In this document: positions 2,412 through 59,629 of the stretch, piece by piece | Numbering within the stretch: position 1 is the stretch's first letter | Layout of the letters: each line of letters starts with the position of its first letter | Assembly: GCA_015179045.1 (NCBI GenBank) | Contig: WHUZ01000082.1 | Location: 186,001-250,000, forward strand | Direction: 5' to 3' | DNA length: 64,000 nucleotides | Source: Kalaharituber pfeilii | Taxonomy: Eukaryota; Ascomycota; Pezizomycetes; Pezizales; Pezizaceae | The notes under the pieces: generated by a model | Told to the model about the DNA's origin: nothing | What the model saw: the letters and a program-made list of their open reading frames with translations, nothing else | Database searches by the model: none | Program-made: the position numbers and the translations under genes

Positions 2412-2445
2412 CGGAACGCATCTTGTCCAGGTGCAACGTGAGGAA

Positions 2446-2501
2446 TTTTTTTTTTTTTTTTTAATTTCATTACTCGCATGCCGCCCTATGGGCTATGGCG
2501 A
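2446..2501 (-). mobile_element. T1 micro-retroposon, 56 bp
   Basis: Poly(T) followed by the complement of the T1 tail (two-stem structure), flanked by the 11 bp duplication AACGTGAGGAA at 2435-2445 and 2502-2512. Nothing of the parent LINE other than its last ~40 nt is present. It lies in the 3' flank of the ankyrin gene. Confidence 0.85.
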
Positions 2502-2723
2502 AACGTGAGGAAGAAAGGTAGCTAGACGGGCGGGATGCCATCACCAAGCCCACAGCAGGATGGGGAGGCCGGCCTGACCCATTGATCAGATAGGTGGAAA
2601 GATGAGAATGCGAATTTTTGACATCTTATTGGCGATGGTGAGGGATAATTGGAACGTTGTTGTTATTGTGATATTTTGATGTTGATATTATGCTTATTCT
2701 TATGCTCTCCTTCATAATTGAGG

Positions 2724-3800: not shown

Positions 3801-4322
3801 AGGTTGGCACAACACTACATTACCAGGACGAAGTGGTCACTGAGGCGGGCATGCGGCAGCACAGCAGAACACGAAGAACGGAAGAAAGGAAGAGACTCCG
3901 ACTGGCATACCGCCCACTGGAATACCTGGGAAACAGGAGGAGAGTAGCCACCCTCGCAGGCCTAATGGGGAACAAGGGACTGAGGCAATGGAGACATAAG
4001 ATAGGCAAAGACGACTCACCGGAGTGCAGATGGTGCGGGAAGGCGCACGAGAATTTCGCGCACATCATGAACGAGTGCGAGGCGTGGAAGAAGAGACTTC
4101 CGGGAGGGGAGGAGGAGTTGAGACAACCGGCGAAGACGGAGAGGGAGGAGGGGGTTAAGCTGGCGGAGATCCTAGACTGGGCGGCGGGGTGATTTCCTAC
4201 TATTTCTGTGCTTAGTCATGATGCGTAGTTGATGTTACTCCATTTTATGTAATTAACCTCGCCATAGCCCCCAGGGCGGCATGCGAGTAATGAAATAAAA
4301 AAAAAAAAAAAAAAAAAAAAAA
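3801..4322 (+). mobile_element. 5'-truncated T1 LINE fragment (post-RNase H region and zinc motif)
   Basis: TSD ATAGCCCTCAGG at 3789-3800 and 4323-4334. The frame 3833-4192 encodes the LINE C-terminus: MVTEAGMRQ, RLAYRPLEYLG, a CRWCG...H...C zinc-knuckle-like motif, then AEILDWAAG and stop. A ~60 nt UTR, the T1 tail (4258-4294) and A(27) follow. The TSD is itself part of an older T1 hairpin, so the LINE inserted into the hairpin of an earlier tail. Confidence 0.8.
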
Positions 4323-4360
4323 ATAGCCCTCAGGGCGCGATACAAGCAATGATATTTGAT
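4323..4360 (+). mobile_element. 3' half of an older T1 tail, split by the preceding LINE
   Basis: Removing 3801-4322 plus one TSD copy joins GCTTGTT (3782-3788) to ATAGCCCTCAGGGCGCGATA and CAAGCAATGATATTT. This is a T1 tail whose outer stem is GCTTG/CAAGC instead of CTCGC/GCGAG, with inner stem GCCC-TCA-GGGC. Confidence 0.65.
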
Positions 4361-5738: not shown

Positions 5739-6475
5739 TATTTAATTGATAACCATGTAGTATCGTCTGCAGCACAACTCCCAACTTGATCAGGACCAAG
5801 AGGAAGACTCTGACTGGCCGCCCGCTTGAGTTCATACAGGCAAGTAATACGTTCTCAACTATCAAGAGCCTTGATCAACAGATTCCAGTGCACAGGAACT
5901 ACAGAATAGGAGCATGAACAAACAGCACCTGCAAGATCGATGAAAGTGGCAATGCGATTACTGATATAAGAAAAAGAAAACATGAAAGTGGCAAGCTACA
6001 AAAGAAAGAAAGAAGATGGAGAATAAGGCATGCAAATTCCGTTATGTGTGCAAGTAGCCGGCGGCAGGAGTCATCGTTCGGCAGCTGAAGACTGCCAACG
6101 ATTGGTAAGGATAGTTACGAAAAGGCGGAACTAAGCAGGATGAGAGCAGAAATAATAGGAAGTAAATCAGATGCGAAGCTACTCGTGCAAGAGGTATGCA
6201 AGCTTGGAAGGGATGCATCCCGTAAGCACAATTTCATATCGCTCATTGCCATAAAATGCCTCTGAGAAGTTGCAGTGCCGTGCCAACAGGATATCGACTA
6301 GTGCACATATAGTAACCTCCCACGTCTGGGCAAAACAATACAAATAATCTAAATTCTGGACATCTCGAAATATGAACATTTGGTCTCTGTCTCCACCGTC
6401 ACATATTTCCGGCTCCTGAATGCGAAACGAAATCAGAGGTGCACCCGCAATACCCCTTGCCTAACGTCAATGGCT

Positions 6476-6608
6476 TACACCGCCATAGCCCCTAGGGTCT
6501 CGCCATAGCCCCCAGGGCGGCACGCGAGTAATGAAAAAAAAAAAAAAAAAAAAAAAAATAGCCCCTAGGGCGGCATGCGATTAATGAAATAAAAAAAAAT
6601 AAAAAAAA
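6476..6608 (+). mobile_element. T1 micro-retroposon (outer, ~60 bp net) interrupted by a second one
   Basis: TSD AACGTCAATGGCT at 6463-6475 and 6609-6621. Once the inner insertion is removed it reads ACCGCCATAGCCCCTAGGG then CGGCATGCGATTAATGAAAT plus A-rich DNA, a T1 tail. The equivalent site in duplication copy B (~12368-12390) has no insertion. Confidence 0.8.
6498..6558 (+). mobile_element. T1 micro-retroposon (inner, 61 bp) inside the outer tail's hairpin
   Basis: TSD TAGCCCCTAGGG at 6486-6497 and 6559-6570. This sequence is the inner hairpin of the outer T1 tail. The insert is the CTCGC..GCGAG structure with inner stem GCCC-CCA-GGGC and a long A tail. Confidence 0.85.
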
Positions 6609-6727
6609 AACGTCAATGGCTAACAAACATATAAAAATTAGGAAACCAACAAGCTTGTTTACTTTTCCACTAAGTAAAGCAACATAGTCGTAATCCTAAA
6701 ACCATGCAAAAATGAACGTAAAATTGA

Positions 6728-9700
6728 CTAGGAAGTACCGCCACGCTCCTTTAATAGCTGAATAACGCTCTCCTTCCTCCCATGACCCCACCTGGACATG
6801 ACCCAGCTACTGCTAATGTCCGATGCCAACGACAATGGCGTGCAACCTTGATTGTCCTTCGAATTGATATCAACATCATTGCGGTCAACGAGCAAGCGCA
6901 CAGCGGCCTTATGCCATTGTTTAGCTGCCCACGATAATGGTGTCCGGCCATTGTTATCCTTCGAGTCGGCATTGACATCATCACGGTTAACAAGCAACTG
7001 CACAATGGCCTCGTACCCATTCCCAGCTGCCCACGATAATGGCGTCCGACCATTATTATCCTTCGAGTCAGCATTGACATCGTCACGGTTAACAAGCAAC
7101 TGCACAATGGCCTCCTGCCCATTGTCAGCTGCCAACGACAATGGTGTCCGGCCATTGTTATCTTTCGAGTCAGCATTCACATCGTCACGGTTAACAAGCA
7201 ACTGCACAATAGCCTTCTGTCCATATTCAGCTGCCAACGACAATGGTGTCCGGCCATTGTTATCCTTCGAGTCAGCATTGACATCGTCGCGGTTAACAAG
7301 TAACTGCACAATAGACTCCCCCCAATTCTCAGCTGCTGCCCACGACAATGGCGTCCGGCCATTGTTATCCTTCGAGTCAGCATTGACATCGTCACGGTTA
7401 ACAAGCAACTGCACAATGGCCTTCTGTCCATATTCAGCTGCCAACGACAATGGTGTCCGGCCATCGATATCCCTCGAGTCAGCATTCACATCGTCACGGT
7501 CAACAAGCATCCGCACAATAGCTTCGTGCCCATTCCTAACTGCCCACAACAATGGTGTCCAGCCATTGTCATCTTTCGAGTCAGCATTCACATCGTCACG
7601 GTCAGCAAGCAACCGCACAATGGCCTCCCGCCCATTCCTAGCCGCCCACGACAATGGTGTCCGGCCATTGTTATCTTTCGAGTCAGCATTGACATCGTCG
7701 CGGTTAACAAGCAACTGCATAATCGCCTCCCGCCCATTCCCAGCTGCCCACGACAATGGTGTCCAGTCGTTATTATCCTTCGAGTCAGCATTCACATCGT
7801 CGCGGTTAACAAGCAACTGCACAATGGCCTCCCGCCCATATTAGCTGCCCATAACAATGGTGTCCGGCCCCGTTATCTTTCGAGTCAGCATTGACATTGT
7901 CGCGGTTAACAAGCAACTGCACAATGGCCTTCTGTCCATATTCAGCTGCCAACGACAATGGTGTCCGGCCATTGTTATCCTTCGAGTCAGCATTGACATC
8001 GTCGCGGTTAACAAGCAATTGCACAACGGCCTCCCGCCCATATTCAGCTGCCCATGACAATGCTGTCCGGCCCTTATTATCCTTCGAGTCAGCGCTCACA
8101 TCTCCCCGCTCAACCAGCAGCCGCACCAAGGCCTCATGTCCTTCCCTAGCCGCATATGACAGTGGTGTTCGACCGTGCCCGTCCTTTGAATCCCAACCCG
8201 CGTACTCATTTCCCAATGTAGCCATGTCCGTTTCCAGTCCAAAATAAGCTGCCGCATGTATTCCCGTAAATCTCCCTGGTGAAGAATCAGACCACCCCGG
8301 ATATGAGTCAGGCAATAAAGACATATACAAGGCTCCCAAAGCACTATGAGGCTGCCTGTTATTCGGTCGTAGTAATTTCCCGGCAAGCTCAGCCGCAGCG
8401 TCATTGGACTGTTGTCGTATATGGTGGCCCCAATGACAGGCTGCGTAGTCTAAGAAGGCAAAGTCTGATTTCTTTTGGTCAAGTTCAGGGACTGTGGGGC
8501 AAGGGGAAGCTAATTCCATAAAGTTAAGGTACGTCAAACAGGTCTCCGCCGCAGTGCTGTGACCATTAGGGAAATAAGCCTTGCTATGTTGCTTGAGATA
8601 TTCATCCAATAAATGATGCACGAACCGAACGGTCGATGTGTCCTCGTCGATGACGGCGAGGCCAAGGCAGCACTCCGTCAAAGTTTCCGTTGAGGGAATA
8701 TTATCCTTATCTAGATCGAGATCGCCTTGCTGAACTGCAAGAGCATGCCGGAGTTCATCCAACTTCAATGACCGATAGGCAAGATGTAGCCACATTAGCA
8801 CTTGCATGCCCAGCTCAGAACTGCACGACTGCGAGTTCATAACTCTATCAATCATACAGGCTATAATATTATTCTGACTCAGGGATAATTTCTTCAGCGC
8901 CTTCCGCCTCTTTGCTATTGTGCGCTGCTCAAGTAACGTGCAGATATGCAAAGCTGGAAATAGGAACCTGAAATCAATTGATTAATGTATGTCTTTACAG
9001 AGGAGAGGAATTTACCACTTACGTTCCCTGAGATTGTTCAAGAATGGTGCTCAGAATTTCGTTTTTTAGTTGCTCATTCATGGCATCGGGATGTGTATCC
9101 AATGCAAGGTGATGAAGAAGACATTTTTTGATATCACCCCGGTCAGCCATGATTTCGATGTCATTCCGGTGTTCCATCTCAAGGCATATATCGATTTCTG
9201 ATCGTATGTGCGGTCTTCCGGTGAGAAATATTCGTGCAGTGCTAAATTCGCTTTGAATCACTTTCAAGAGACTGATCCGTGTCTGGGGCTCTAACTCATC
9301 TGCCGCGTCTATGCAGACAAATATGCTGTCGAACAGGGGTAATGTGAGCCTGAGTATTTGTATAACATTAGAATTGTCCACCTTCTTTTCTTGCTTTTGG
9401 ACAGATTCGAGGATGCTCATTATTGTATCTGGGACTTGTGATGCAGCGGTTAAAAGTTGCTTGAGAAAGCTACCAAGAATGTTATTTAATGTTTGGCTCC
9501 CTTGGTCTCGGTAGTCCCCATATAACCATGCGATCCCTACTTTATCTCGCTCTGGGAATTCATGAAGGAGATGTTCGATCACAATAGAGCTATATATAAT
9601 GGGATATTAGTAAAGCCATCAAAGGCTCTCCGGGGTGTATTAGAAGGTACCTTAACACTGTTTTACCAGTACCAACGCCCCCAAAACAGCACAGGATACG

Positions 9701-11633: not shown

Positions 11634-12409
11634 GATTATTTAATTGATAACCATGTTGTATCGGCTGCAGCACAACTCCCAAATTGATCAGGACCAAAGA
11701 GGAAGACTCTGACTGGCCGCCCGCTTGATTTCATACAGGCAAGTAATACCTTCTCAACTATCAAGAGCCTTGATCAACAGATTCCAGTGCACAGGAACTA
11801 CAGAATAGGAGCATGAACAAACAGCACCTGCAAGGTCGATGAAAGTGGCAATGCGATTACTGATATAAGAAAAAGAAAAGATGAAAGTGGCAAGCTACAA
11901 AAGAAAGAAAGAAGATGGAGAATAAGGCATGCAAATTCCGTTATGTGTGCAAGTAGTGGGCGGCAGGAGTCGTTTGGCAGCTGAAGACTGCCAACGATTG
12001 GTAAGGATAGTTACGAAAAGGCGGAACTAAGCAGGATGGGGACAGAAATAATAGGAAGTAAATCAGATGCGAAGCTACTCGTGCAAGAGGTATGCAAGCT
12101 TGGAAGGGATGCATCCCGTAAGCACAATTTCATATCGCTCATTGCCAAAATGCCTGTGACAAATTGCAGTGCTATCCCATGCAGCGCCAACAGAAGATCG
12201 ACTAGTGCACATGCGGTAGCATGGCATATCTGGCTAAACAGATCAAATAATGTTAGATTCTGAACATCTCGAAATAAGAACATTTGGTCTCTGTCTCCAC
12301 CGTCACATATTTCCGGCTCCTGAATGCGAAACGAAATCAGAGATGCACCCGCAATACCCCTTGCCTAACGTAGCGTCAAGTCATTGGCTAAGAAACATAT
12401 AAAAATTAG

Positions 12410-12447
12410 ACGGCACGCGAGTAATGATATAAAAAATAAAAAATAAA
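12410..12447 (+). mobile_element. T1 micro-retroposon, 38 bp, truncated inside the hairpin
   Basis: TSD ATATAAAAATTAG at 12397-12409 and 12448-12460. The insert starts at ACGGCACGCGAGTAATGATA and continues as A-rich DNA, so only the 3' arm of the tail is present. Copy A keeps the uninterrupted target at 6629-6641. Confidence 0.9.
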
Positions 12448-12546
12448 ATATAAAAATTAGAAAACCAACAATCTTGTTTCCTTTTCCACTAAGTAAAGCA
12501 ACATAGTAGTAATCCTAAAACCACGCAAAAATGAACGTAAAATTGA

Positions 12547-23399: not shown

Positions 23400-24583
23400 G
23401 GCCTGGCTGGGGGTAGTTCCACTTGATCCAACTTTATTGGTGGAAGGATTAGCAAACTTGGAGTCGGTGGAGACGTTTGTGAGATGGGAGGCGACGCGAG
23501 TGGAGGCGAGAGCATTGAGGTTCGAGGGGGAGCGGCTGAAAGAAGGGGACAAGGAGAAAGTGTACCTGAGAGGGTCGTTGACACATAACAGGGAACTGCC
23601 ACTGGCGGTCATACAGACGTTGCACCGGGATGCAGAGGGGGGGGAGTGGGAGAGACATATAGATGAGGTTACGGACGAGGGGTGGGTTCCAGTATATACA
23701 GACGGGAGCATGAGGGAGGAGAAGGCGGGAGCGGGTATGTTTTGGGGGGGTAGATCGACATCAATATATCTAGGGGAGGACGCTACAGTGAATGATGCGG
23801 AACTGATGGCGATTAGTGAGGCGATGGAGAGAGTGGAAGGGGAGCTATTGATCATAACGGCCTCCAGATATGCGATCCAGAGGATGACGGCGGTCTCAAG
23901 GGGGGAGCTCGCTCACGACGGAGCGACGAGGCGGCTCAGGGAAGCTTGGGAAAAGAGGATCCTGAGAGGAGACTGGGACATAGCGGCTTTATGGGTGAAG
24001 GCGCATAGGGGGATTGCCGGCAACGAGAGGGCTGACAAAGCAGCGAGAACGGGTACTGCCTTGCAGTACAAGTCGGAGATGGTGACAGAGGCCGGACTAA
24101 GACAGAAGGGGAGGAGAGAGAGAGCAGAGGAGAGGAACCGGTTGGGATTGACATACAGACCGCTAGAGAGGATCGGCAAGGGGATAGGACGGTTGGCGGG
24201 CCTCTTGGGGGGCAAGGGGTTGAGGGCCTGGAGGTGGCATGTGGGCGAAAGGGATGGTCCAGAGTGCAGGTGGTGCGGAGAAGAGGAAGAGACGACGAGA
24301 CATCTGTTAGCGGAGTGTAGGGTATGGAGGAGGCGGTGGCCAGGAGGGGAGGATCATGTCAGGAGGCCCCCACGGGGAAAGGAGGGGGAGGGGGACCCGA
24401 TGAGGGCGTTGATAGAAATGTTGGGGAGTGAGTTCAGAACTTTCATGTAGCAGAGGGGACGACAAGGGGAGAATTACCTTAATTACTCATCATGGTTTTA
24501 TTTTTCCTTATGTATCTAGGACATCGCCATAGCCCATAGGGCGGCAAGCGATTAATGACAAAAAAAAAAAAAAAAAAAAAACC
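23400..24583 (+). mobile_element. T1 LINE 3' part with RNase H domain (337-aa frame), catalytic Asp replaced
   Basis: The frame 23437-24450 encodes an RNase H domain (VYTDGS with the first Asp, NDAELMAI with Glu, KAHRGIAGNERADKAAR with the last Asp), a ~100 aa linker, the CRWCG...H...C zinc-like motif and the C-terminus. The normal TDS motif reads TAS (ITASRYAIQ), losing an active-site Asp, so this copy is predicted inactive. Reverse transcriptase is missing through 5' truncation. The 3' UTR, a T1 tail with outer stem ATCGC/GCGAT, and A(22) follow. The left boundary was not resolved. Confidence 0.8.
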
Positions 24584-24725
24584 ATGAACTACAATTTTTT
24601 CTTTTTTTTCTTATAATATGATTCCTCGCATACCGCCTTAAAGGCTACGGCGAGATTAAATACATAAGAGATCAAGAAAAATTAAAACTGAAATGGGGCC
24701 CTCATCTCTCTACCCACCCCATGAG

Positions 24726-24758
24726 TAATGATAAAAAAAAAAAAAAAAAAAAAAAAAA
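24726..24758 (+). mobile_element. 33-bp retroposed tail end: TAATGATA plus poly(A)
   Basis: TSD TACCCACCCCATGAG (15 bp) at 24711-24725 and 24759-24773. Only the last 8 nt of the T1 tail and ~25 A remain. The target ends in GAG, which matches the GAG that precedes TAATGA in the intact tail. Confidence 0.9.
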
Positions 24759-25026
24759 TACCCACCCCATGAGTTCCACTAGTGTGTCCGGCCCGTGCTC
24801 CTGTCCCTCTGGTGGCGTTCTGACCGCGTCCTACGCCCGGACGCCTTCTCTTCACATCTCACACCTGGACCAGATATGTTCTGATTTCTCCTCTTCCATA
24901 CTGCACCACCGACATTGTAGCCCGCCCACCTTACCGCTTATAAACTTCCAGGCCCTCAGGCCCTTCCCTCCCAATAGACCTCCCAGGGTGCGTACCAGGC
25001 TGCCCTGCCGAAGTGGGTGGTAGCTC

Positions 25027-25092
25027 TTGTTTTTTTTTATTATTTTATATCATTACTCGTCTCGCGCCCTATGGGCTATGGCGAGGTTTTCT
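25027..25092 (-). mobile_element. T1 micro-retroposon, 66 bp
   Basis: TSD TGGTAGCTC at 25018-25026 and 25093-25101. Full two-stem tail with a variant 3' arm (GCGCGAGACGAG). Confidence 0.8.
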
Positions 25093-25501
25093 TGGTAGCT
25101 CAGCTTCAACCGGTTTCTCTCTTTTGCCCGCCACCTCTTGGCTATCATTCTCAGGCCCGCCTCTGTTACTTCCTCCTATTGATAGGGAAGGAAAGCTCCC
25201 AGGCGTGCTGCCTTATCAGCCTTCTCCTTACCTTTCAGGCTGCTGTGACCTTTGAGCCATATCACTGCCACATCACACATCCCTCTCGCTACCCGTTTCT
25301 TCCAGGCATCTCGACATACCCTACTTGCCCCATCTGGCATGTGCCTTCCCTCTACCATATGAGATAGCCTTCTCAACGCTACCTGTGAGTCCGTCACGAT
25401 TAGAAGCTCCTCCTCTTCCTCATCCTCCATGATCTTAGCTATTGCCATTACTTCTGCGTCGTTGACCATGGTTCCCATTCCTAGATAGATGAACCACAAT
25501 A

Positions 25502-28758: not shown

Positions 28759-28830
28759 GGGGATGTGGTTTAGTGGTATAATACCTCTTTAGCATAGAGG
28801 TGGTCCGGGGTTCGATTCCCCGCATCTCCA
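28759..28830 (+). tRNA. tRNA-Ala (anticodon AGC), no intron
   Basis: A 72-nt cloverleaf. Acceptor stem GGGGATG/CATCTCC includes the G3-U70 pair that identifies alanine tRNAs. Anticodon stem CCTCT/AGAGG surrounds loop TTAGCAT (anticodon AGC). T arm CGGGG-TTCGATT-CCCCG. Discriminator A; CCA is not encoded, as usual for eukaryotes. Internal A and B boxes are present (B box GGTTCGATTCC). Confidence 0.95.
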
Positions 28831-39095: not shown

Positions 39096-39940
39096 GTAGG
39101 AACCAAAATTGTGATGTCGAGTAATAGAAGTTCTCATTGCTCTCTGAATTTGACGATTGATTGGCCTAAAAAGGTATCATAGCTTTTAACTGTCGCACGT
39201 TGTCATGGATGACCAGGATTCTATAGGAGGCATAATACTCTAATATGTATAATCATACTAGTACCAGGACCATGAAAACGTGCTAGATTGGCACTGGGCA
39301 CGTGCGCGACACAAAAGATGCCTACTCCATCAGAATACTATGCAAGAAGAAGGGATCACAATGGATGCATAAGCACCCACGCTTGTGGGGAAAATGTCTC
39401 TCGCAGTATTGCTTGCCTTGCTCAAGCTCGCTGATTTCGGTAAACGTGCCTGGCAGTATTTTGGTGAGTATTATTCTAGTGCGACAACCAAAACGTTTTG
39501 TGAATGCGCTCAAAAAATTGCATAATCCAATAATTTTGCTTCCCCTCCCATCAGCTCCTGCATTATGAATCTACCCCACGTTGATCAAAACACTGCATCA
39601 GCGAGTGAGAAATTGCCAGAAGGGAGCTAGTTCTATGATCCGAAGTTCATTTCCCAACCAATTGATTTGAATATCGTATGTTGCAGATTTGCCAGGTCAG
39701 GGGTCAGTAGGCTGGACAAGATAAAATAGAGTTTAGCGCGAGGTGAATTCAGGAGCAGAACGAACGAACATGAAACAAATTGGCTTGAAGCGAGGGGGCA
39801 GGGCAACGGGGCGTACCGAGCACCGAATGCTTAGGATTCTACTTTGAAAACTCGAGGATGATAAAACACTATCCAGCAGTCATTTTGCCGAGGTTCATAC
39901 ATTCCGTATCTTGCAGAAGATTTCACAAGTCCACCACGAA
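39096..39940. other. Gene-free region
   Basis: No supported gene or repeat. Confidence 0.4.
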
Positions 39941-39997
39941 GCCCTGCCATGGCGAACAGCTGCAAGCGGGGTTACGTGAGATTAAAAAAGAAAAAAA
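39941..39997 (+). mobile_element. T2 micro-retroposon, 57 bp
   Basis: TSD AAGTCCACCACGAA at 39927-39940 and 39998-40011. T2 structure: outer CCCTGC/GCGGGG, inner GGC-GAACA-GCT, then TTACGTGAGATT and A-rich. Confidence 0.9.
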
Positions 39998-40011
39998 AAG
40001 TCCACCACGAA

Positions 40012-43943: not shown

Positions 43944-43957
43944 TCCCATGGAAACCT

Positions 43958-44027
43958 TATCGCCATAGCCCATAGGGCGGCATGCGATTAATGATATATA
44001 TATATATATATATAAAAAAAAAAAAAA
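43958..44027 (+). mobile_element. T1 micro-retroposon, 70 bp, with (TA)n tail expansion
   Basis: TSD TCCCATGGAAACCT at 43944-43957 and 44028-44041. Outer stem ATCGC/GCGAT. The GATAT tail is expanded to (TA)~10 before A(14). Confidence 0.9.
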
Positions 44028-44041
44028 TCCCATGGAAACCT

Positions 44042-44660: not shown

Positions 44661-44672
44661 GGTCGCTGCTAC

Positions 44673-44739
44673 TTTTTTTTTTTTTTTTTTTTTTTTTATT
44701 TCACGTAACCCCGCGTGCAGCTTTTCGCCATGGCAGGGC
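44673..44739 (-). mobile_element. T2 micro-retroposon, 67 bp
   Basis: TSD GGTCGCTGCTAC at 44661-44672 and 44740-44751. Confidence 0.9.
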
Positions 44740-44751
44740 GGTCGCTGCTAC

Positions 44752-45132: not shown

Positions 45133-45145
45133 GCTTCGCTAAGCT

Positions 45146-45212
45146 TTTTTTTTTTTTTTTTAATATCACATGACCCCGCGTGCAGCTGTTCGCCAAGGCA
45201 GGGCAAATCCAC
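45146..45212 (-). mobile_element. T2 micro-retroposon, 67 bp
   Basis: TSD GCTTCGCTAAGCT at 45133-45145 and 45213-45225. Eight bases beyond the stem (AAATCCAC) are included at the 5' end. Confidence 0.85.
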
Positions 45213-45225
45213 GCTTCGCTAAGCT

Positions 45226-48397: not shown

Positions 48398-51300
48398 GGC
48401 ACACCCGAAGTGTTGAGAGAACTTGGAGTGCTTGATATGCTCGAGAGGTTTCGTAAAGAGGTCAGCAGGATTGTCGTCAGAGGGGATGTATTCGATATCA
48501 AACAGCTTTCGTATGAGTGCCTCGCGCGTGAAGTGGTAGTGGATATCTATATGTTTGGACCTTTGAGAGATTTGCGGTTTGTTGGAAAGGTCAATGGTGG
48601 ATGTATTGTCAGAGTGCAGGAGGATAGGGACTTCTAGCTTGAGTTCTTGAAATCCGTGCAGGTACCAAATTGCTTGTCTAGCAGCAACAGAAAGAGCCAT
48701 GTATTCAGCTTCAGTGGTAGAAACTGATACTGAATTCTGTTTCTTGGACACCCAGGAAATCAAGCAGCCACCAAGTAAGAAACCATAGCCTGACCACGAA
48801 CGACGAGTATCCGGACAGTTTCCATAACCGGAATCAGCGAATCCAACAAGAGATAAAGAACCAGAACGCGGATAGTGAAGTGCCACATGACGAGTACCAG
48901 AGAGATAGCGAAATACTCTTTTAACAGCCTGATGATGCGCCTCAAGAGGATGAGAGCAGTACTGAGAGAGTAAAGAGACAGCATGTGCGAGATCAGGGCG
49001 AGTACCAGTAACCAAATACATGAGAGAGCCAATCATTTGTTGATAAAGATTGGTGTTGACAGCAGGCTCCTCTTCAGGGTAACCCTTGTGAAGTTTACCT
49101 TTCGGATCGAGGGGAGTGGAAACCGGACGTGAGTTTTCCATGCCGAAACGACGTAGTATTTGATCGATGTATTGGGACTGATTGAGCTCGATGCTCTCTC
49201 TATTTTGACGAATTTCGATACCTAGTAACCATTGCAAGGGACCTTTTACAGTCACCTGGAAATGAGACTGAAGATGCGCAGTTAGGCGATCTAGATCTGC
49301 CCTAGTTCCAACAATAGTTAAATCGTCCACATATACCACCAGAATGGTGCGACGTGTAGCATTGAAGTAGACGAAAACACAGGGATCGAAGTGAAGTGAA
49401 CGGAACCCCATTTCAGCAACAACAGATGATAGCTTTTCATACCATTTGAGTGGTGCTTGCTTGAGTCCGTAGAGAGCCTTTTTCAGCAGAAGAACCTTTC
49501 CTTCTAGACCAATGCCTGGGGGCGGCAGCATCCAGATTTCTTCGCTGAGTTCTCCATTCAAGAATGCCGTTTTGATGTCCAATTGCTCAAGTTCTAGACC
49601 GAGAATAGCGGCAAGGGCAATGACGAGACGTAGGGAATCGTACCGTGTAACAGGCGCGAAAGTCTCTTCATAATCAATACCAGCTTTCTGTGAATAACCC
49701 TTGACGACTAGTCTAGCTTTGTAGCGCTCAATAGAACCATCAGCATTCAACTTGATCTTAAATACCCATCTGCTGTGTATGGCCTTACGCCCTTTTGGTA
49801 GTTCTGTTAGATCGTGTACTTCCCAGACCTTTGCATCCTGAATCGACTGATGCTCCTCAATTATGGCGGTTTGCCATTTGTCCCAGTCTATGCATGCCAT
49901 AGCTTCGTCGTATGTTTGAGGTTCATACGTCGCGCTGAGTCCGCTGAATCCGTAACGCACAGGGGCTTTACGCTCTCTCTGAGATCGGCGTAATGAACCT
50001 GATGTGCTAGGAGCTTGACTATTTTCAAAGAGGAGCTGACGTTCAGCTTCATCATCAATTTCATCAAGTGAGGCGGAGGAAGGAGCAGAGGCGGAGGCAG
50101 AGGCGGAGGCTGAAGCGGGAGCTGAGACGGTCGATTGTGGAAGTGCAGCAGTGTCAATGTCGTCGAAAAACGAATTCGATGGATCTATGACAGAATGATG
50201 CGGTGTGGGAGTTGACGAACTGGATTCGGTATCACTACCAAAACTACCAGGCATAGATTGCTGTATAGGCGATGGACTATGCTGTGCAGGCGGAGGTGGG
50301 CTCAGGGTAACTTGAGATTCAGAGGTTGATTGAGCTGGTGGTGCTGGTGAGGCGGCCGGTTCAGGCGTCGGTAAGGCTGGTGACGGTGATACGGCCGGGA
50401 CGGCAGAAACAGATGATGACGATGTTGCTGGGAACTCTATATCAGAGGACGTGTTGTTTGGTACAAACCGTACTTGATTAGATTCATTAACTGTTCTCTT
50501 AGATGGAATGTAAACGCGGTACATGGAATTACAAGTGTAACCGACAAGACGACCTTCTAGTGCTCGCTGCTCCAGTTTGCTTCCAGGTCCCCTAGTTGAT
50601 TCTGGAATATGCACATAGCACTGTGTGAAGAAAGGGCGGAGGTGTCCAACTTGCGGTCGTCGGTGGAGGAGTACTTCATACGGAGTTCTTCCCTGTAGAG
50701 CCGTATGTGGTAGGCGATTCTTGAGGTATACAGCCCAGTTAAAGGCTTCAGACCAAAGGAATTTCGGAGCATTTTGCATAGCAGGACGGCACATATTCGC
50801 AATGATAGCGTTGTATCTCTCAGCGATACCATTGGACTCTGGTGATGCGGCGGCAGTGGTTTGATGAGTGATTCCCTTCTCAGAACAATAATCAGACCAC
50901 TCAGTGTTGAGGTATTCACCACCTCTGTCAGACCTGATAGTACGTGGGTACCGACCAGTGTTATTGGCGACTTTTTGACAGAGATCCTTGAGGTGTTTTA
51001 CAGCCTCAGATTTCTGTTTCAGGAAGCGGATTTCTGCATACCGCGAAAAGTCATCAATAAACGTCATGTAGTAGAGGGCGCCGCTTAGAGATTGTACCGG
51101 AAATTTGCCAGCGAGATCAGTGTGAACAAGATCGAAGGGCTCTGCGGCTCGCTGGTTTGTAGGGGGAGGAGTAACATGCTTGGAATTCGATTTAGCACAC
51201 GCATCGCAGAAGAAGAAAGACGGGCGCTTTGGGATAATATGACCATCAACATATCTATCAACAGCGGATGACCATGACTGTGGTGAGGTATGGCCAAGGG

Positions 51301-53556: not shown

Positions 53557-54640
53557 GTGAGATGAGGTAGAATGAGCAGAATTTGCAACATACGGTATGC
53601 ATGACCCGGCGGTGTGAGATATGGCAACATGAGCTGAATTTGATAGATATCACAGGTCCGACCCGACGGCACGAGATAATGTAGAATGAGCTGAATTTGA
53701 TATATGTGGCAGCCCGACCTGCCAGCGTGAGATGAGGTACTATGAGCTCAATTTGACAGGTATGGCAGATCCGAGCCGGCGGCGTGAGGTGAGGTAGAAT
53801 GAGCTCAATTTCACACGAATTGCATGCCCGACTAGACGGCATGAGCTGAATTTGACACGTATAGGTGGCCTGACCCGATGAGGTGGAATGAGCTGGATTT
53901 GACAGGCATGGCCGGCCCTAGCCATTTCAGTAGCCATTTCTGTAGCCATTTTAGCAGCCATTTCAGCAGCAGTTTCTTTTTTTTTTTTTTTTTTTTTTAT
54001 ATCATTAATCGCTTGCCGCCCTATGGGCTATGGCGATACCGATTTATTAGCAGCAGTTTCAGCAGCCATTTCAGTAGCCATTTCAGTAGCCATTTCAGCG
54101 GCGATTTCAGTAGCCATTTCATCAGCCATTTCACCAGCCATTTCACCATCCATTTCAGTAGCCATTTCGGCAGCCATGTCGGTAGCCGTTTGGCAGCCTT
54201 TTTAACATCCATTTTGGTAGCCATTTTGGCAGCCATTTCGGTAGCCATTTCTCTAGCCATATCAGTTGCCATTTTCGCCTGTAGCCCTTTCAGTAGCCAT
54301 TTCAGTAGCGATTTCGGTAGCCATTTTATTCTGCATTTCGGCAGCCATTTCGGCACGTGATACGTAGTGGCAGTTCCGACCCGACGGCACGAGATGAGGT
54401 GCAATGAGCTGAATTTGACAGGTAGAGGAGGTACGGCCCGACGGTGAGAGATGAGGTTGAATTTGACAGGTATGGCCGGCCCGATCCGACGGCACGGGAT
54501 GATGCAGGATGAACTAAATTTGGCGCATGTAGCCGGCCTGACCTGACGGCGCGAGATCAGGCACAATGAGCTGAATTTGACAGGTATGGCAGGCACGACC
54601 TGACAGTACGAAGAGCTGAATTTGACAGGTATTGCAGGCA
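53557..54640 (+). repeat. ~57-bp minisatellite, right of the copia element, with a CAGTAGCCATTT array
   Basis: Continues the 46.6-47.8 kb array. Between ~53920 and 54355 it is replaced by ~30 degenerate units of CAGTAGCCATTT (12-18 bp), which in turn carry the T1 insertion at 53977. Confidence 0.8.
53977..54050 (-). mobile_element. T1 micro-retroposon, 74 bp
   Basis: TSD AGCAGCAGTTTC at 53965-53976 and 54051-54062. Outer stem ATCGC/GCGAT. Eleven bases of UTR (ACCGATTTATT on the plus strand) are kept. Confidence 0.9.
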
Positions 54641-55381: not shown

Positions 55382-55563
55382 ACCGGTAGAAGTCGAGTTA
55401 CCTGTGCTCTACTGTCAGATAAGGTACTAGATAGTACTTTATATGATAAATGTACTTGTAAGGCTACATTCATATTCACAGACTTCTAGACAATATGTGA
55501 AAATCTCTTCTTACGATAAGATCGTGGTGAATTTTCTGTGTAAATGTTCCTCACTCGCCATAT

Positions 55564-55619
55564 TTTTTTTTTTTTTATTTCACGTGACCCCGCTTGCAGC
55601 TGTTCGCCATGGCAGGGCA
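55564..55619 (-). mobile_element. T2 micro-retroposon, 56 bp
   Basis: TSD TCACTCGCCATAT at 55551-55563 and 55620-55632. Confidence 0.9.
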
Positions 55620-55710
55620 TCACTCGCCATATAACCCATGACTAAACAATTCCAAACTGATGTCTACGGCCATTGCTAATGCCTCAATTATGTTTATATC
55701 GGAATTGCAT

Positions 55711-55773
55711 TCGCCATAGCCTATCAGGCGGCACGCAAGTAATGAAATAAAAAAAAAAAAAAAAAAAAAAAAA
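55711..55773 (+). mobile_element. T1 micro-retroposon, 63 bp, inner stem GCCT/AGGC
   Basis: TSD CGGAATTGCAT at 55700-55710 and 55774-55784. Inner hairpin GCCT-ATC-AGGC. Confidence 0.9.
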
Positions 55774-55784
55774 CGGAATTGCAT

Positions 55785-58039: not shown

Positions 58040-58053
58040 TTTTCGGTTATCAT

Positions 58054-58112
58054 TTTTTTTTTTTTTTTTTTTTAATATCATTACTCGCATGCCGCCCTCT
58101 GGGCTATGGCGA
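58054..58112 (-). mobile_element. T1 micro-retroposon, 59 bp, inserted next to the previous element's TSD
   Basis: TSD TTCGGTTATCAT at 58042-58053 and 58113-58124, overlapping the right TSD of 57770-58039. Confidence 0.9.
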
Positions 58113-58124
58113 TTCGGTTATCAT

Positions 58125-59300: not shown

Positions 59301-59557
59301 GACTGGCTCGATACTATTGATTCTTGATCTACCCACAGAGTAATTACCAGAGCCCAACTTGAGACTTTGCTCACTCTGATTAGAAAACCTCAATGCAATG
59401 TCTCCTGAGGACTTGTGCTACCTGTTGAAAGGGGGAACGTTTCTATAGTCTCAAATAATAGTATGTAAGACCTGTTGGCTGGTAAGTGAGCGTGGAAGTA
59501 TCGCTCATGTGGTCGGCCATGTGGAATGCACTCAGAAACCATACCCGTGTACATCTA

Positions 59558-59617
59558 TTTTTTTTTTTTTTTTTTTTATATCATTTATCGCTTACCGCCC
59601 TGTGGGCTATGGCGATG
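59558..59617 (-). mobile_element. T1 micro-retroposon, 60 bp
   Basis: TSD CGTGTACATCTA at 59546-59557 and 59618-59629. Outer stem ATCGC/GCGAT, inner GCCC-ACA-GGGC. Confidence 0.9.
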
Positions 59618-59629
59618 CGTGTACATCTA

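Follow-up and report, generated by a model that had tools for sequence, protein, structure and literature searches.

The genome of Kalaharituber pfeilii, the Kalahari truffle, a desert truffle of the Pezizales, contains a population of hairpin-bounded micro-retroposons, each built of LINE 3' hairpin(s) and poly(A). They probably arose, in our guarded judgement, as LINE-RT copies of short tail RNAs that already ended at the hairpin base. These insertions are TPRT products mobilized by LINEs, as seen from their TSDs, the poly(A) that follows a LINE tail, and precise empty sites. TSD size across the micro-retroposons is roughly 9-18 bp. For three different predicted hairpins, here called T1, T2 and AAGCC, the 5' ends of the inserts gather at the first paired base or no more than about 3 nt away from it. 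The analysis started from a window of 64,000 nucleotides (C342:186001-250000) and extended to searches of the 78.0 Mb assembly of 360 contigs.

An initial annotation of the window had listed at least 14 insertions with a 9-15 bp TSD, poly(A) and a fixed tail. Rebuilding the sites from the sequence bore this out, with exact direct repeats of 9-15 bp flanking an A-tailed insert at all 14 positions. The size it gave, 33-74 bp, holds for the 13 single inserts (33, 37, 56, 57, 57, 59, 60, 63, 66, 67, 68, 70 and 72 bp) but not at 6498, which is part of a 134 bp compound with at least two tail units. Its statement that most insertions begin near the outer stem is right, with exceptions: eight of the 14 start no more than 1 nt from the first paired hairpin base, three are longer, two have their start within the hairpin or below it, and the last is the compound. 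Ten sites carry the T1 tail, CTCGCCATAGCCCnnnGGGCGGCATGCGAGTAATGA or its ATCGC/GCGAT variant, with only the last T1 letters kept at 24726. The other four (39941, 44673, 45146 and 55564) carry the unrelated T2 tail, GCCCTGCCATGGCGAACAGCTGCAAGCGGGGTCACGTGA.

The index insertion (2435-2512, minus strand) has the TSD TTCCTCACGTT and a 56 bp insert at 2446-2501, composed of the T1 hairpin tail and A17, which starts with TCGCC, 1 nt inside the outer stem base. The T1 inserts at 55700-55784 (plus strand, 63 bp) and 58042-58124 (minus, 59 bp) share this TCGCC start, and an insert of the ATCGC/GCGAT variant at 59546-59629 (minus, 60 bp) starts with C plus ATCGCC. The same variant at 43944-44041 (plus, 70 bp) contains an (AT)n stretch. 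T2 inserts start with GCCC at 39927-40011 (plus, 57 bp) and 44661-44751 (minus, 67 bp), and with T plus GCCC at 55551-55631 (minus, 57 bp). At 25027, 45146 and 53977 there are 7-11 nt extra at the 5' side: a T1 insert that reaches 7 nt past the stem base (25018-25101, minus, 66 bp), a T2 insert with 8 extra nucleotides (45133-45224, minus, 68 bp) and an ATCGC/GCGAT T1 insert with 11 (53965-54060, minus, 72 bp). The two that start inside or below the hairpin are 12410, a 37 bp T1 insert beginning within it (12397-12461, plus, TSD ATATAAAAATTAGA), and 24726, a tail end without hairpin, whose 33 bp insert is TAATGAT plus A26 (24711-24773, plus, TSD TACCCACCCCATGAG). The compound at 6464-6621 (plus, TSD ACGTCAATGGCT) comprises a partial 5' arm, a full T1 hairpin with A25, and a second partial hairpin (TAGCCC...) with an A-rich tail. 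Compounds at 4297-4345 and 6498-6610 of the window have the same order of hairpin tail, A-run and second partial hairpin from TAGCCC, as if the polymerase had jumped from one tail RNA to the next. Read by eye, ankyrin-repeat-like open frames adjoin micro-retroposons at 300-2410 and, on the minus strand, at 6720-8260.

Both tails are predicted to fold, T1 into CTCGC/GCGAG around GCCC/GGGC and T2 into GCCCUGC/GCGGGGU plus an inner stem. Both closing pairs vary among 128 distinct T1 tails: the outer stem closes with CG in 85 tails and AT in 32, the inner stem with CG in 95 and TA in 27. Two-sided changes number 64 against a shuffle mean of 17, and none of 500 shuffles, which do not keep relatedness, reaches 64. 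Judged by this covariation at the closing pairs of both stems, T1 is a conserved 3' stem-loop common to the LINE and the micro-retroposons. Variation in T2 is too low for a covariation test. For single sequences, the stability of the fold relative to shuffles is modest (z -2.27, -1.49 and -1.72 for T1; -0.62 and -1.95 for T2; -1.03 for the 79-mer). In the LINE carriers of T1 and of T2, adjacent open frames encode EN, RT and RNase H domains, and the RTs of the two LINEs are about 25-36% identical; by sequence comparison, the tails belong to two distant LINE clades. Two LINE open frames compared with PDB sequences gave no match. A source-type LINE copy lies in the window at 23401-24581 (plus), where an open frame that matches RNase H and, weakly, zf-RVT is followed by a 3' UTR, a T1-type tail (core 24539) and poly(A).

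To define where T1 copies start, we used 183 tails that were not chosen by their upstream sequence: all 107 tails in the window and in C2:100001-300000, and 76 others drawn from the first 100 listed places of a strict genome-wide T1 search. To be counted, a tail had to have at least 11 A's in the next 20 nt and at most 5 mismatches in the 20-nt core. TSDs were identified as matches between upstream sequence and the sequence that follows the A-run, and the null was obtained by swapping downstream flanks among copies. Offsets are given in nucleotides upstream of the GGGC arm, which places the outer stem base at 16. Starts at offset 13-19 were found for 36 of the 183 tails, compared with 0.45 under the flank-exchange null. 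When copies of repeated stretches were collapsed, 34 starts stayed in this peak. The remaining de-duplicated starts were 2 at -12 to -4 (in both cases a tail matching another tail), 8 at -3 to 5, 1 at 6-12, 7 at 20-40, 10 at 41-100 and 21 at 101-230. The initial annotation had named a sharp length peak with one fixed 5' end as support for a discrete element. Such a peak is present at the stem boundary in the sample examined, with 34 starts in 7 nt where 1.1 would be expected at the rate of the 41-230 nt range (0.16 per nt; Poisson p 1e-37). This corresponds to a step in start density of about 30-fold at the T1 stem base. The minor cluster of eight starts within the hairpin, at -3 to 5, resembles polymerase stopping.

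Longer T1 truncations have spread-out starts. In the 40 copies longer than 60 nt, a hairpin at the 5' end was found at 0.28 against 0.23 in control windows (windows of 40 nt) and at 0.33 against 0.25 (windows of 60 nt). This excess is not significant, and two modes therefore appear, spread-out truncation and hairpin-bounded micro-retroposons. The median A-tract is alike in T1 micro-retroposons (22, n=47) and long T1 copies (22.5, n=22). A cluster of starts at 91-99 nt, of which two fall at a CCCGC/GCGGG repeat, was too mixed to claim. In the T1 LINE 3' UTR a CCCGC...GCGGG inverted repeat lies about 98 nt upstream of the tail core, and the truncated copies at two loci (L032 and L038) both begin 1-2 nt ahead of it. 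TSD calls out to 8 kb upstream are unreliable, with 76 seen against 7.4 by exchange at p < 1e-3 and a much larger number at less strict cut-offs; any length above about 230 nt is therefore indicative only.

A scan blind to the tails gave the same picture. For 217 A-runs in 264 kb (the window and C2:100001-300000), any TSD within 400 nt was accepted and duplicates were not collapsed. This returned 68 inserts, 27 of which have 37-43 nt ahead of the A's against a null of 0.4, two of the 27 being one duplicated stretch. The smooth length distribution of ordinary 5'-truncated LINE copies, which the initial annotation had set against a discrete class, was not seen. Among the 51 inserts of at most 70 nt, 47 carry T1 or T2 pieces, three are low-complexity and one (C2-193924, p 8e-4) is without a known tail; two of the 47, at 4297 and 6534, are tail-to-tail matches and not true TSDs. 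A processed pseudogene of a host RNA was discarded as a source, since 47 of the 51 carry such tail pieces. Stops at the hairpin entrance are rare, with two credible inserts (24733 and C2-11012) having 10 nt or less before the A's in the 264 kb.

The joined flanks of the 51 short inserts were also compared with all sequence fetched from the assembly. Seven have a paralog that lacks the insert, in alignments that cover at least 178 of 180 nt at 82-98% identity and contain 0-1 gap. The empty counterpart of insert 12410, read by eye, lies in the same window at about 6627-6660. Stretches 6421-6660 and 12330-12480 of the window are paralogous and carry different micro-retroposons, so that each is a comparison site for the other. 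For the index site, neither an empty site nor a second copy of the flanks was found in the assembly. Strict genome-wide searches, in which LINE copies and micro-retroposons are pooled, gave 2963 T1 3' halves followed by A's and 917 T2 tails, and reversed control patterns gave 0 matches genome-wide. The 264 kb contain 47 micro-retroposons (32 T1 and 15 T2). Scaled roughly from these, the genome may hold a few thousand copies, an estimate that is only rough because the C2 stretch is rich in T1 tails, at about three times the genome mean (23 of the 2963 strict matches against 7.6 expected).

The T2 tail shows a boundary of similar precision. Our sample comprised 48 T2 tails, 47 of them within the 264 kb; here a counted tail had at least 11 A's in 22 nt and at most 4 mismatches. 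Of the 15 short inserts, 12 begin 20-22 nt ahead of the seed, no more than 1 nt from the stem base at 21, and the next TSD-resolved insert after this short class lies at 242 nt. Among longer T2 copies, 13 were resolved (C2-106286 is an artefact) and 20 were not, some of the latter resembling worn micro-retroposons. The LINE sequence AGGGR stands directly upstream in at most 345 of the 917 strict T2 tails, so at least 572 are without it; these depart from the LINE sequence no more than 5 nt from CCC, or their context has changed (as in two that were fetched, L149 and L150). Of 100 listed T2 places, 60 were read, 52 chosen without and 8 with AGGGR upstream. TSDs were resolved at 44, 33 of which start 0-3 nt before CCC, and the other 16 include several like micro-retroposons with worn TSDs; since most places were picked for the absence of AGGGR, 33 of 44 is a measure of precision, not of frequency. 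The TSD ends in G in each of the six T2 inserts with a CCC start, which makes the first paired G in effect the first copied base. Bases ahead of this G are mostly not those of the LINE.

Four T2 inserts start 37-39 nt further 5', at AAGCCTGCCTCCGGGCTT, a predicted 7-bp hairpin that we call the AAGCC hairpin. A search of the assembly found 163 copies of it, and 20 new loci were taken in list order, not by upstream context. Seven were resolved, and six of these start no more than 2 nt from the first paired base, forming a 77-nt class. The seventh has 15 T's in front, and the other 13 loci continue into a shared LINE 3' UTR. Separately, T2 family b copies at 48792, 62366 and 81912 of the C2 segment start 1342-1445 nt from the tail, at least two with similar first letters, and have no T2-type RT upstream; they are possibly a non-autonomous element of about 1.4 kb.

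We then considered whether the micro-retroposons form lineages of their own. T1 micro-retroposons and T1 LINEs share the same variants, and mean nearest-neighbour distances (1.72 micro to micro, 1.51 micro to LINE) give no sign of a separate T1 micro lineage. T2 families were counted by hand on C1-C12 from lists and fetched loci, with classing partly by context alone. On this count, tails of the form GCTACAAG...TCACG have a micro:LINE ratio of 29:2 (22 micro-retroposons TSD-resolved, two unresolved and five classed by context, not fetched), while those of the form GCTGCAAG...TTACG have 8:20 (two micro-retroposons resolved, six unresolved), a difference with Fisher p 3e-7. At position 1 of the TTACG tails, G is found in 8 of 8 micro-retroposons and in 2 of 18 copies in LINE context (p 3e-5). 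The main T2 micro tail types do include longer copies that have a G there. Some T2 micro-retroposons do not match the commonest LINE type, and they may belong to a partly independent lineage. A cap-derived G as the origin of the T2 start G was set aside, as T1 micro-retroposons lack a G start and G-type LINE tails exist.

The initial annotation had stated that the insertions lack Pol III boxes, and no Pol III family was found at any of them in the window. Rfam at gathering scores and ARAGORN, run on the whole window with complete models rather than separate A and B box scans, gave a single match, a tRNA-Ala (AGC) at 28759-28830, away from any micro-retroposon. A Pol III SINE with a tRNA, 5S or 7SL head was rejected on this basis.

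These results are, on balance, best accommodated if the template was already short. Trimming of the LINE mRNA from its 5' side, for example by a 5'-to-3' exonuclease, would halt at the folded tail bound by LINE protein. The stub would retain the hairpin and poly(A) that the LINE protein requires, and would then be primed at the nick, copied to its end and joined with a few extra nucleotides or microhomology. Stringent-type LINE proteins are described in PMC4176376 as binding their essential 3' stem-loop. Trimming down to folded, bound tail segments should produce stops at successive hairpins, as observed. Template-limited copying fits best because a cDNA blocked by the fold should stop on entry from the 3' side, and only two credible inserts of that kind were found. 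Longer copies would come from ordinary 5' truncation with spread-out starts, as a second mode. Additional 5' nucleotides are no help in choosing between readings, since about 40% of zebrafish ZfL2-2 copies also have them (PMC2666801). The uneven T2 micro:LINE ratios and the position-1 G count against a generic by-product of every LINE.

The initial annotation had offered two origins, LINE copies aborted at one spot or a minimal element mobilized in trans. In the former, a full LINE mRNA would be the template and the RT would abort after the hairpin, held there by the tail-binding region of the LINE protein. We regard this as unlikely, though worth keeping in view. The boundary coincides with the structure that the LINE protein would bind through its tail-binding region (PMC4176376); the eight T1 starts inside the hairpin look like stops, and template switches of the Magnaporthe LINE MGL adjoin predicted hairpins (PMC2104539). 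The reading fits less well with the second boundary at another hairpin, 37-39 nt further upstream, and with the scarcity of entrance stops. An enzyme anchored on the terminal hairpin is a fair rival for the 40-nt class and less so for the 77-nt class. The MGL enzyme is also reported, in PMC2104539, to leave just before a GCC triplet, often in hairpins. Such a rule predicts T1 starts near 10 or 3, where we saw one at 8-12, one at 2-5 and 36 at 13-19, and it was rejected as the cause of the main peak. It may apply to the second units of compounds 4330 and 6568 and to insert C2 140866 (by eye), all of which start with TAGCCC.

The notion of a minimal element served in trans is sound insofar as a tail and poly(A) suffice. 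T1 shows no sign of a separate micro lineage, and for T2 a partly independent one may exist. As a self-propagating micro-SINE, the 40- and 77-nt T2 elements, and perhaps T1, would be transcribed from their own loci and use LINE enzymes in trans. The fixed GCCC start, the dominance of micro-retroposons in some T2 tail types (29:2) and a position 1 unlike that of the commonest LINE type (8 of 8 against 2 of 18) speak for it. Yet a 40-nt copy has no known promoter of its own, the one tRNA is the only Pol III family in the window, T1 micro-retroposons are no nearer each other than to LINEs, and longer copies with a position-1 G occur in the main T2 micro tail types; we find this origin improbable. 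That all are ordinary LINE copies, 5'-truncated so as to follow one smooth distribution of lengths, is scarcely credible. Tail, poly(A) and TSD are indeed those of the LINE and longer truncations are spread out, but the 30-fold density step at the T1 stem base recurs at T2 and at the upstream hairpin. Smooth truncation was rejected on the sample examined, in which starts cluster at the stem base.

Truncated copies of stringent-type LINEs (UnaL2, ZfL2-1 and ZfL2-2) are alike in having TSDs, a 3' hairpin tail and EN/RT-encoding partners. Unlike 5'-truncated LINE copies, the short copies here contain no LINE body and have starts concentrated at hairpin bases. SINEs are usually about 100-500 nt long; the micro-retroposons differ from them in having no body and, as far as found, no Pol III head, with typically 37-43 nt before the A's. 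Xrn1-resistant RNAs have a 5' end set by a fold. They have this in common with the micro-retroposons, as an analogy only, the latter being known here from DNA. Mg-SINE and its partner MGL (PMC2104539) resemble our elements in that a non-coding RNA uses a LINE tail for capture in trans. The MINE and WEIRD-MGL chimeras of Magnaporthe also involve a fungal LINE RT and junctions favoured near predicted hairpins (PMC2104539). In those, the junction lies beside GCC and a second RNA is fused, whereas micro-retroposons start at the outer stem base and usually have nothing fused; the rare compounds 4330 and 6568, which restart at TAGCCC, come near the GCC rule. Among the open-licence papers listed by our searches, judged by titles and the openings of abstracts, we found no description of hairpin-only LINE insertions.

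More than one cause of LINE copy shortening has been named, RT dissociation in PMC2104539 and host end-joining in PMC2666801. Here, the positions of micro-retroposon 5' ends track predicted RNA structure for two LINE clades that are distant from each other, and this population would allow template-limited and enzyme-limited truncation to be separated by direct experiment. The minimum accepted by LINE machinery is very low, one hairpin and poly(A), and length cut-offs in repeat annotation will miss the class. More tentatively, and with slightly less confidence than in the short-template origin itself, we propose a class of retroposons in which one RNA hairpin is the unit, with stable tail stubs from mRNA decay as a regular template for at least two LINE clades. 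If this decay-stub reading is true, the genome would record, nearly nucleotide by nucleotide, where RNA decay stopped.
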